55,305 nt of DNA from Campylobacterales bacterium (GCA_027065125.1 JAMOOV010000050.1:1-55305); one strand, 5' to 3'; counted from the first letter of the stretch, positions 18,367-22,322 are shown. The notes: generated by a model from the letters alone, not told the origin. Program-made: numbers and translations.

Positions 18367-18440
18367 ATATTATATTGTTTTGTTAAGATTTATATAATAA
18401 ATCTATTTGCTAAAAAGCAAATAGAAACAAAATATAATAT
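18367..18440 (-). promoter_or_regulatory. Structured 5' leader of the RRM gene: three-way junction
   Basis: Reading the minus strand, an outer stem joins 18440-18425 to 18384-18367 (10 bp, a 3-base bulge, then 5 bp). Inside are two perfect hairpins: CTATTTGC/GCAAATAG (8 bp, 6-base loop, 18424-18403) and GATTTAT/ATAAATC (7 bp, 3-base loop, 18403-18387). The AAAGGA ribosome site begins right after the outer stem. A segment further 5', AATATTGTTT (18455-18446), can pair with nine bases of the outer stem's 3' arm instead, giving two exclusive folds. Confidence 0.6.
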
Positions 18441-18568: not shown

Positions 18569-20926
18569 TTATGAAAAAGGCTTAAATCTAATAATTAAAA
18601 TCGGTAAAAGGATAAGAGCACACAAAAGAGCAAAAAACATTGCAACTACAGTCAATAAACCAAAATATATAGTAGGTATAAAATTTGATGTTACAAGTAT
18701 GCTAAAACCTATGATAATGGCTATAGATGTATAGTACATAGCATAACCGATACTTTCATGAGATCTTCTCATTGCCAAAAGATAGTTTTTATCTTTTTTA
18801 AACTCTTCTTTAAATCTATGAATATAGTGTATAGTGTCATCAACTCCTATACCTATACTTATGGCAGCTATGGTTATAGTCATCATATCAAGAGGTATTT
18901 CTCCCCAGCCCATTACACCAAAAATTACTCCGATAGGAACAATATTTGAAAGAAGAGCTATGGTAGCAACTTTTACGGATTTAAATAGCATAATAAACAT
19001 GACAAAAAGAGCAAAAAGAGTGGCTTCAAGAGTTAAGATTTGAGATTTGAAGAGTGATTGGAGCATATTGTTGTAAAGTATCATCATATTGCCGAGTTTA
19101 ACCGTAGCAAATTTTGGATCTACTATCTTTTTTAAATCTTTCTCTATTTTATGTATAAGTTTATTTCTTCTAAGTGTTTTATCCGAATCTTTTATCCTCA
19201 TAGCTACTCTTAATTCATTTTTTTCTATATTAATATATGGAAAGAGAAGTATCTTTTTAAACTTTTCAGGCAGTTTTTCATATATAACGGCAAGTTCAAA
19301 ATTGCCAAGAGGTTTTCCGTGCTGTATGGTTTTGCCTAACTTTAAAAGGGTTGCCAAAGAGTGTACACTACCGATATATGGGATAGATTGCATATAGTTA
19401 TACACTTTTTCTACAAGATTGAGCTTGGTCGGGGTGAACCAATACTTAGGATCATTGGCATCCGTTTTATATTCGCTTTCAAAATCATCAAAACTATCCT
19501 CTTCGTCATCTTTCATTTTGGCGACAGTTTGTTTTTTTTGCTCTTTTAGTATGATTATGATATCAAGCGGAGTTGTTCCTCCAAGCTCTTGATCTATGGT
19601 TTTTAAACTTTTATAAATTTCTGTTGACGATTTAAAGTAGTTAATAAAGCTGTTTTCAACTATGAGTTTCGGGATACCCGTAAGGCTAAAAACTATAATG
19701 ATAAAAGTAACGATATATACAATATTTGCTCTTTTTTCTACTATGTGAATGATGTGGTGTATAAAAGAAAAACTATTTTTATTTGCAACTTCCTCTTCTT
19801 TGTAGTTTCTTTTAAATAGCATCATAATGGCTGAAAACATAATAAATGATACTATCAAAGAGACCGATATACCTATACTCATCATAAGTCCGAGATAGAT
19901 AACGGGTTTTATACCCGAAAGTGTCAAAGAGGCAAATCCGACAACGGTAGTGGCTATGGCATAAAAAGATGGTTTTGCTTTTGAAGTGATAGTTGTAAGT
20001 ACTAACTCTTTTTGAGAAAATTTTGGCTCAACTCTTTCAAGCTCTCTATATCTTACTATCAAGTGTAGTATGATAGATAGAGTGATGATAAGTTGCAAAG
20101 AAACAAAGTTTGACGATATGACTGTAACATCCCATCCGAAAAGCACGATCAAAGCGGCTGTTGTTGCGATAGATAGCACGGATATAAGCATAGGCATAAA
20201 GACCCATTTTATCTCTCTAAAAATCGTCCATAGTATGGCTATGAGCAGTATTGTTAAAGTAAATCCATATAGAAATATATCGTTTTTTACAAAGCCTATC
20301 ATATCATCGGCTATCATATCTACACCGCCGAGAAATAGCTTGCCTTTGTTTTTATACAGAGATAGATAGTCTCTTATCTTTTGCAAATATTCGTGTCTTG
20401 AGAGCAATCCTTTGGAGTTTGATTTTAGGTTTATCACAAGAGCGGTAGTAGTAAAATCGGAACTAACAAGAGCATTCTTGTATAGCGGACTTGTTAAAAA
20501 CTCTTTTTTTGCAAGAGTCAGATTGACATCTTTGCTTTGGAGTGTAGGTACTTTATCTACAAGATCAGTAATGGGGATATCTTTGTTTTCAAGTAAAGGT
20601 ACGGTTAGTATGGATGTTATGGATAGGATATTGGGTATCTTTTTAAGATCGTTTGATAGATTTTTAATGGTATCTAAACTCTCTTTTGATAAAAGAGGGG
20701 CTTTTGGTGTAAATGTAACAAGTAAAATATCGGGATTGTAAAAGTCTTTATCTATTTTTTTTAAAAATGCGAGATCGGGATCATTGTTCATTAAGAGACT
20801 TTTCGATGTGGCATCTATCTTTAAATGAGTGCTAACATATCCAAAATATAAAAAAAACGGTATTAATGATACAAGTATAAATTTTGGATATTTAAGTATA
20901 AAGCCGTCAAAAATTTTTTTAAGCAT
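18569..20926 (-). CDS. RND/MMPL-superfamily exporter, probable lipid transporter (HpnN-like)
   Basis: A 785-residue membrane protein with the internal duplication of small RND exporters: one helix, a large periplasmic loop and five helices, twice. The signature ISIGIGVDDTIHYIHRF in the second half, with acidic residues in a helix, is typical of MMPL/HpnN-type pumps driven by protons. The second periplasmic loop has an acidic insert (DDEEDSFDDFESEY). Its start overlaps the mlaC end by 8 bases and mlaA is just upstream, so it probably moves phospholipid between inner membrane and periplasmic carrier. MlaFEDB genes are absent here. From memory, the same three-gene set is Cj1371-Cj1373 in C. jejuni. 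Confidence 0.85.
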   Translation of the reverse strand: MLKKIFDGFILKYPKFILVSLIPFFLYFGYVSTHLKIDATSKSLLMNNDPDLAFLKKIDKDFYNPDILLVTFTPKAPLLSKESLDTIKNLSNDLKKIPNILSITSILTVPLLENKDIPITDLVDKVPTLQSKDVNLTLAKKEFLTSPLYKNALVSSDFTTTALVINLKSNSKGLLSRHEYLQKIRDYLSLYKNKGKLFLGGVDMIADDMIGFVKNDIFLYGFTLTILLIAILWTIFREIKWVFMPMLISVLSIATTAALIVLFGWDVTVISSNFVSLQLIITLSIILHLIVRYRELERVEPKFSQKELVLTTITSKAKPSFYAIATTVVGFASLTLSGIKPVIYLGLMMSIGISVSLIVSFIMFSAIMMLFKRNYKEEEVANKNSFSFIHHIIHIVEKRANIVYIVTFIIIVFSLTGIPKLIVENSFINYFKSSTEIYKSLKTIDQELGGTTPLDIIIILKEQKKQTVAKMKDDEEDSFDDFESEYKTDANDPKYWFTPTKLNLVEKVYNYMQSIPYIGSVHSLATLLKLGKTIQHGKPLGNFELAVIYEKLPEKFKKILLFPYINIEKNELRVAMRIKDSDKTLRRNKLIHKIEKDLKKIVDPKFATVKLGNMMILYNNMLQSLFKSQILTLEATLFALFVMFIMLFKSVKVATIALLSNIVPIGVIFGVMGWGEIPLDMMTITIAAISIGIGVDDTIHYIHRFKEEFKKDKNYLLAMRRSHESIGYAMYYTSIAIIIGFSILVTSNFIPTIYFGLLTVVAMFFALLCALILLPILIIRFKPFS

Positions 20927-21518
20927 TACTGTTTTTGATATTGGCTTTTTTTATCTTTTTTAGAAAATCGTCAAAATCCATATTGTTTAATAAATCACTA
21001 AATTGTTCTCTATAGCTTTTGATGATACTAACATCGGAAACGATAACATCATATATAATCCAACCTCTTTTTTTTGAGTGGTAAAATTTATATATTATAT
21101 TTACAGTATCTTTTTTTCCTACAAGTTTGGTTAGTAATTTTGCTCTATTTGCTCTATTTTTTATAAAATCTTTGATAACTATATCTTGGTTGTTGTACAA
21201 TTTTAATTTTTCTATGAAAGATTGTTTTAGTAGAGAAATGAAAGTTTTTATATATCTTTCTTTTTCATCTTTAGAAATATTTATCCAATGTTTTTTTCCA
21301 AGAGAGAGTCTTGCCATCAAGTTGTAGTCAAATGCCTCATTAAACATTTTAAATATTTCTTGTGCTTTTAATTTGTTACTCTCTTTTTTATGTTTGAGTA
21401 TATTTAAAGCTGAATGTATTTTTGTACTCATTGTCTCTTTTATATTACCTTCAAGAGCATTTGCAGTTGTTGCTAATAGTGTAAATAAAACTATAGTATA
21501 TATTATTTTCTTTATCAT
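20919..21518 (-). CDS. MlaC/Ttg2D-family periplasmic phospholipid-binding protein
   Basis: A 199-residue protein with a signal peptide (MIKKIIYTIVLFTLLATTANA) and a mature part matching the MlaC/Ttg2D family: FKMFNEAFDYNLMARLSLGKKHW, EKERYIKTFISLLKQSF and the beta region with VNIIYKFYHSKKRGWIIYDV. MlaC carries phospholipid across the periplasm between the outer-membrane MlaA complex and an inner-membrane transporter. It lies between mlaA (3-base gap) and the RND exporter (8-base overlap). The inner-membrane partner is therefore probably the RND protein rather than an MlaFEDB ABC transporter. Confidence 0.88.
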   Translation of the reverse strand: MIKKIIYTIVLFTLLATTANALEGNIKETMSTKIHSALNILKHKKESNKLKAQEIFKMFNEAFDYNLMARLSLGKKHWINISKDEKERYIKTFISLLKQSFIEKLKLYNNQDIVIKDFIKNRANRAKLLTKLVGKKDTVNIIYKFYHSKKRGWIIYDVIVSDVSIIKSYREQFSDLLNNMDFDDFLKKIKKANIKNSNA

Positions 21519-21521
21519 TTT

Positions 21522-22259
21522 TTACTCTCTTATAAGTTTTTTTCTATGTTTTTCATAAAAGTTTTTCAATATGGGATATAAAACAACATTGCCTTTTTTT
21601 ATGGCTTTATATTTTTTATAGTCAAAAGAGGTTTTGTTTATAATTCTGAAAGTTCCTATAACTAAAGATTGATCGTCATTATCGCTTAAATTGTATCCTC
21701 TGTTGTTTATATATGGTATAGGATCAAGCATATAATCACCTACAAAACCAATGGTATCTCTTAAATTAGAAGGTCCCAAAATAGGCCAAACTATATACAA
21801 TCTATCCCCCATACCATAATATCCAAGTGTTTGCCCAAAATCCTCATTATGAGATTTTATATGAAATTTATTTATTGCTACATCAAACAATCCTGCTATG
21901 CCGATTGTGCTATTTAACACAAATCTTTGAGTCTCTTCAAAAGAATTTTTGATTTTTAATTGCAAAAGATTGTTTAAAAATCTAACAGGAAAAAAAAGAT
22001 TATTAAAAAAGTTAGATACGGAATTCCTGGCGAGTGTAGGAACAATTTTCTTATATCCCTTTGCTATCGGAAAAAGAATATATGTATAAAATTTATCGTT
22101 TAAATTTGTCATAAATACATTGTATCCTTTTATTGGATCGGAATTCTCCTTTTTTTGTACAGTATATTCGCTATCAAAGCTATCAGCTATACTATCTTGG
22201 ATATCCGAAGATGCAAAAGCTACAGATAGGAGTAACAATAGCGATAAAAAAATCTTCAT
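21522..22259 (-). CDS. MlaA/VacJ-family outer-membrane phospholipid protein lacking a lipobox
   Basis: A 245-residue protein of the MlaA (VacJ) family: NDKFYTYILFPIAKGYKKIVP, RFLNNLLQLK, TIGIAGLFDVA, DFGQTLGYYG and GPILGPSNLRDTIGF-like motifs (here WPILGPSNLRDTIG). MlaA removes mislocalised phospholipids from the outer leaflet of the outer membrane. The signal sequence MKIFLSLLLLLSVAFASSDI has no Cys in lipobox position, although MlaA proteins are usually lipoproteins; this one appears to be cleaved at an ordinary site. It is the first gene of the mlaA-mlaC-RND set, 63 bases after valS. Confidence 0.88.
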   Translation of the reverse strand: MKIFLSLLLLLSVAFASSDIQDSIADSFDSEYTVQKKENSDPIKGYNVFMTNLNDKFYTYILFPIAKGYKKIVPTLARNSVSNFFNNLFFPVRFLNNLLQLKIKNSFEETQRFVLNSTIGIAGLFDVAINKFHIKSHNEDFGQTLGYYGMGDRLYIVWPILGPSNLRDTIGFVGDYMLDPIPYINNRGYNLSDNDDQSLVIGTFRIINKTSFDYKKYKAIKKGNVVLYPILKNFYEKHRKKLIRE

Positions 22260-22322
22260 ATCCTATACCTTTTTAAATATTGACTACAATTATAGCAAAA
22301 AAAATAGATTTTCAAAAATTTT

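Follow-up and report, generated by a model that had tools for sequence, protein, structure and literature searches.

Gene content of the mlaA-mlaC-RND locus

The window analysed here, a stretch of 55,305 nucleotides from a Campylobacterales bacterium (GCA_027065125.1, JAMOOV010000050.1:1-55305), carries mlaA, mlaC and a gene for an RND protein as a single minus-strand unit, transcribed in that order. The features of the locus are:

21522..22259, minus strand: mlaA, 245 aa; PF04333 at E 1.1e-62, over the Pfam cut-off
20919..21518, minus strand: mlaC, periplasmic lipid carrier, 199 aa; PF05494 at E 1.6e-33, over the Pfam cut-off
18569..20926, minus strand: RND protein, MMPL/HAE3 type, 785 aa; PF03176 at E 4.8e-26, over the Pfam cut-off
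22284..22300 (approximate), minus strand: TGCTATAAT-like -10 box in the valS-mlaA gap; consensus match only
18402..18425, minus strand: terminator-like hairpin with a T-rich tail, 3' of the RND gene; consensus match only

Open-frame reading of the window gave a gap of 3 bases between mlaA and mlaC (21519-21521) and an overlap of 8 bases between mlaC and the RND gene (20919-20926), and the close packing described in the original prediction was exact by open frames and Pfam matches, as was the absence of mlaF, mlaE, mlaD and mlaB beside these genes at the locus. The TATAAT-like box before mlaA is probably the promoter of all three genes and, as consensus matches, box and hairpin fit a three-gene transcription unit.

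The N-terminus of the window MlaA resembles a signal peptide, and the 245 aa of the protein include no cysteine, which means that it is not a lipoprotein and has no lipid anchor. The Campylobacterota MlaA proteins examined mostly had the same signal-peptide-like N-terminus and no lipobox cysteine, unlike E. coli MlaA; a lipobox cysteine was present in several MlaA proteins of Desulfobacterota and Planctomycetota. MlaC is single-copy in the genome of the window, its profile matches solved MlaC/Ttg2D structures, and against NCBIfam models it scored higher for HpnM (56.0 of 160.1 bits) than for E. coli-type MlaC (31.0 bits), both being under cut-off.

The RND protein scored 91.9 bits against PF03176 (MMPL; cut-off 20.5) and had been described as HpnN-type. 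Its kinship to HpnN in sequence and fold was borne out, but the label is a loose one, as the NCBIfam HpnN models (97.7 of 751.9 and 89.6 of 1100 bits) were bettered by the HAE3 model TIGR00921 (148.8 of 351.9 bits), with all of these scores under cut-off. For the AlphaFold2 model of the protein (pLDDT 84.8, pTM 0.79), the nearest solved folds found by Foldseek were MmpL4/5/3, NPC1-type proteins and HpnN, with query TM-scores of approximately 0.65-0.74 to MmpL3/4/5 and NPC1 at 11-15% identity. A proton-relay acid is present in the membrane core as Asp696 of TM10, which was kept in 109 of 110 RND sequences, and the matching TM4 position (Ser284 in the window protein) was acidic in none of the 110; His288 was invariant across the same set, and TM4 and TM10 each hold a conserved His. 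HpnN alignments displayed the reverse pattern (GVDF in TM4, GVGVAF in TM10), so that the relay acid lies in the opposite half and the family is related to HpnN yet distinct from it. A second, unlinked RND copy was observed beside the linked one in some genomes (G126, locus L053; G163, loci L106 and L189).

These comparisons bear on whether MlaC and the RND protein could be an HpnM-HpnN pair that moves hopanoids or some other polycyclic lipid. The HpnM score of MlaC does exceed its score for the E. coli type, and the RND protein has HpnN among its relatives, but both proteins fall far below the HpnM and HpnN family cut-offs, the relay acid is in the other half of the protein, MlaA belongs to the unit, and a search of 160 Campylobacterota genomes for a squalene-hopene cyclase over cut-off found none (0/160). 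The missing cyclase argues that MlaA-MlaC-RND is not the hopanoid HpnM-HpnN system; hopanoid export was ruled out on this and on the low family scores, leaving the polycyclic-lipid reading as a whole extremely improbable. Nor is it at all probable that a drug or bile-salt efflux RND came to adjoin mlaAC by accident: the protein is a member of the RND superfamily, and bile salt lowers mlaA and mlaC expression in C. jejuni according to the expression results of one study (PMC6549495), but the unit has no periplasmic adaptor or outer-membrane factor gene, the fold and size of the protein are those of the MMPL/lipid branch, and it is conserved with MlaC across five phyla (below).

MlaEFD elsewhere in the same genome

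The genome of the window (209 contigs, listed as 100% complete) was found to encode mlaE on one further contig, C3, while another, C1, holds mlaF and mlaD together with a gene for an ABC_trans_aux-like lipoprotein. MlaE is 373 aa long (L002:1033-2154, on C3), with an N-terminal extension that weakly matches STAS (E 0.0021, 18.2 of 22.6 bits). No separate MlaB gene was found beside mlaE, mlaF or mlaD in this genome, and the STAS-like stretch suggests that MlaB is perhaps fused to MlaE. Open frames for an MlaE of approximately 370 aa are widespread in Campylobacterota, a phylum that papers describe as being without MlaB, and such a fusion may occur there more generally. MlaD is long (331 aa) and unlinked to mlaC. 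The ends of C1 (L001) and C3 (L002) overlap in mlaE and mlaF; the overlapping copies differ slightly, as would be expected from a mixture of two strains in the assembly, and the mlaEFD operon is broken there.

The original prediction placed the RND gene in the stead of MlaFEDB and took its product for the only candidate inner-membrane partner of MlaC. Neither view survived the finding of MlaE with its STAS-like part, MlaF and MlaD on C3 and C1, an outcome that the prediction itself had set as its refutation: a replacement of MlaFEDB in this genome was ruled out, the RND protein does not simply substitute for that complex, and MlaC has a second potential partner encoded in the same cell. A classical Mla system split over two loci, in which MlaA and MlaC feed MlaEFD while the RND protein is a passenger or an independent exporter, would agree with this gene content. 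It is also the assignment published for C. jejuni, where mlaAC and mlaEFD (Cj1646-1648) lie at separate loci; the passage concerned makes no mention of Cj1373 (PMC6549495). The order Cj1371-1373, given in the original prediction as matching the window, is borne out in part by two papers (PMC6549495, PMC11955535), which name Cj1371 as MlaA, Cj1372 as MlaC and Cj1373 as an integral membrane protein. A translated small ORF of 26 aa has been reported antisense to this C. jejuni RND gene (PMC11955535).

Co-occurrence and linkage of MlaC and RND

Among 160 Campylobacterota genomes, MlaC was carried by 83, MlaA by 87, MlaE by 157 and MlaD by 159. RND orthologs (threshold, E below 1e-100) were found in exactly the 83 MlaC genomes with no exceptions, so the suggestion that the mlaA-mlaC-RND system is general in the phylum holds wherever MlaC exists. 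MlaE did not track MlaC (p 0.25), being present in 80 of the 83 MlaC genomes, as a split classical system would have it, and also in 77 genomes that have no MlaC. Both MlaA and MlaC were missing in 73 genomes, and four genomes from three genera (G020, G023, G106 and G152) had MlaA only, with MlaC and RND both missing. In 78 of these 83 genomes the RND gene immediately follows mlaC and shares its strand, which argues that the arrangement is not due to chance, and in the other five (G139, and G109, G123, G056 and G146 from a single genus, g24) it was kept though unlinked from mlaAC.

Presence of MlaC and RND changed concordantly each time: counting only the well-supported branches of a RecA tree gave at least 4 changes, and the best tree gave 11; the RecA tree, used for counting gains and losses, is weakly supported, and one of its rows (G145), with a huge branch and odd composition, is probably a wrong-frame translation. 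Genus and family labels alone imply approximately 9 changes. Co-loss partly reflects linkage, as a single deletion can remove both adjacent genes, and since the genes are usually adjacent the co-occurrence is evidence for a unit and not proof of contact.

The few genomes without a match to MlaE were of several kinds. G122, a closed genome of one contig (3.2 Mb), had MlaA-MlaC-RND and seven MCE-domain matches, which probably belong to one multi-MCE (LetB-like) protein; G089, a draft, had MlaA, MlaC and RND with neither MlaE nor MlaD; G046 kept MlaD. Genomes without MlaA and MlaC (genera in families f5, f6, f9 and f10) often had an MlaE of 265-290 aa and an MlaD of 450-525 aa, perhaps a bridge-type Mla. 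MlaD length was rejected as a marker of MlaC use, as lengths were similar with and without MlaC among genomes with a STAS-fused MlaE.

A scan of a genome collection, of which the best 80 loci were taken, revealed mlaC directly upstream of an RND gene in Desulfobacterota, Myxococcota, Nitrospirota and Planctomycetota as well (record labels as deposited). Gene orders were A-C-R and C-R-A, and flanking genes, for example those for menaquinone synthesis or Trk, were unrelated between loci. Among the genomes from outside the phylum, MlaC was over the Pfam cut-off in 40/40 and MlaE was found in 24/40, absences being soft because most of these genomes were binned from metagenomes and their completeness is not known. 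The linked pair occurred in approximately 30/40 (with the second copy in G163 counted); in approximately 10/40 no MlaC adjoined the RND gene, and these had mlaA-mlaC pairs at other loci or a classical mlaEFDC operon; in G184, among others, the only MlaC was of the classical mlaEFDC type. The MlaD that adjoins MlaC in the classical operons is short (148-158 aa). RND-linked and unlinked MlaC proteins are split by a branch with SH-aLRT 99, and the MlaC branch of the linked pair is separate from that of the classical operons. An apparent natural MlaC-RND fusion (L149) was an artefact, with 5000 masked Ns upstream.

The RND protein is thus a conserved companion of MlaA and MlaC, in five phyla, and is a good candidate for the inner-membrane partner of MlaC; judged by co-occurrence, it appears better supported in this role than MlaEFD. 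A classical Mla split over two loci is unlikely against this background, in view of the 77 genomes that retain MlaE without MlaC, the retention of MlaC and RND without MlaE in G122 and G089, and the persistence of a supposed passenger in 83/83 genomes, even where unlinked, and across phyla; MlaD, moreover, is long and unlinked here, and short and beside MlaC in classical operons.

A candidate lipid shuttle and its relation to known systems

We favour, with a probability of roughly 0.57, the reading that MlaA, MlaC and the RND protein act as a lipid shuttle, with a proton-driven RND protein as the inner-membrane partner of MlaC, alongside a largely MlaC-independent MlaEFD. MlaA in the outer membrane would exchange phospholipid with the periplasmic carrier MlaC, which would dock on the RND protein at the inner membrane, and the latter would move lipid between MlaC and the inner membrane at the expense of the proton gradient, via Asp696 in TM10 and the His residues of TM4 and TM10. 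MlaE(STAS), MlaF, the long MlaD and the lipoprotein would form the second pathway. Against this shuttle, the presence of MlaE in nearly all MlaC genomes (80/83) means that MlaC may act with MlaEFD, either in addition to the RND protein or in its place. The outside genomes in which RND has no MlaC next to it (approximately 10/40), some of them with a classical MlaC only, also count against it.

The same figure is what would be expected if MlaC were a carrier shared by both inner-membrane systems working in opposite directions, for example with RND export and MlaEFD return, and the closest solved folds do include the exporters MmpL3/4/5 and HpnN. MlaE is, however, kept in 77 MlaC-less genomes, which indicates that the MlaEFD system works without MlaC, and the long MlaD is of a type interpreted elsewhere (PMC10665443) as a bridge that needs no carrier, the likeness here being one of length; a shared carrier is distinctly unlikely.

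Within the shuttle reading, lipid flow may be retrograde, from outer to inner membrane, a direction modestly favoured by analogy, with export as the main alternative. Two parallels favour retrograde flow: in E. coli Mla, extraction from the outer leaflet falls to MlaA, and NPC2, a soluble carrier, unloads its lipid onto the RND-fold protein NPC1. So does the increased vesicle output of the C. jejuni mlaA deletion mutant, whereas its unchanged detergent sensitivity and permeability in the same published description speak against the shuttle (PMC6549495). A bolder form of the shuttle reading, in which a free-standing, proton-driven MlaA-MlaC-RND system exists in five phyla or more, has an MlaC subfamily of its own and an RND family with the relay acid in the other half from HpnN, MlaC never works with MlaEFD there and Campylobacter "Mla" is two pathways, is tentative and falls a little short of an even chance.

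The MlaC-RND association is real and underappreciated. Neither a link of MlaA or MlaC to an RND gene nor interaction, substrate or mutant results for this RND protein were found in the literature searched, in which coverage of subscription papers and preprints was small. The direction and mechanism of phospholipid movement between Gram-negative membranes are still disputed, and a carrier family tied to a proton-driven RND protein would, if confirmed, separate the role of MlaA and MlaC from that of MlaFEDB and give a new reading to published C. jejuni studies in which mlaA, mlaC and mlaEFD form a single pathway and Cj1373 goes unmentioned. As far as gene content can tell, the pairing across many bacteria points to a second way of powering intermembrane lipid traffic.

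With E. coli Mla (MlaA-MlaC-MlaFEDB), a system of lipid exchange between membranes, the locus shares the MlaA and MlaC families; it differs in that the neighbour of mlaC is an RND gene and not mlaFED, that MlaEFD is encoded at another place, with an MlaD of 331 aa, and that MlaA has neither cysteine nor lipid anchor. HpnM-HpnN of Rhodopseudomonas and Burkholderia likewise pairs an RND transporter for lipids with a carrier of the MlaC family, but here there is no hopene cyclase, scores are far below cut-offs, MlaA is included and the relay acid is in TM10 and not TM4. MmpL3/4/5 and NPC1 have in common with the window protein the RND fold of lipid transporters, and differ in lipids, partners and sequence (11-15% identity). 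Handover of lipid from a carrier to an RND protein has precedents in HpnM-HpnN and NPC2-NPC1. A further precedent is the Bst sterol system of Methylococcus, which has the same three-part layout for lipids, with BstA as the RND protein, BstB periplasmic and BstC in the outer membrane, although its carrier and outer-membrane parts come from other families and its substrate is a sterol (PMC10942540). H. pylori has been reported to possess MlaEFD without MlaA and MlaC (PMC11756786). The 73 Campylobacterota genomes missing both proteins resemble Veillonella, in which MlaEFD with a long MlaD operates without MlaA and MlaC (PMC10665443), whereas in the genome of the window MlaEFD, with its MlaD of 331 aa, coexists with them.
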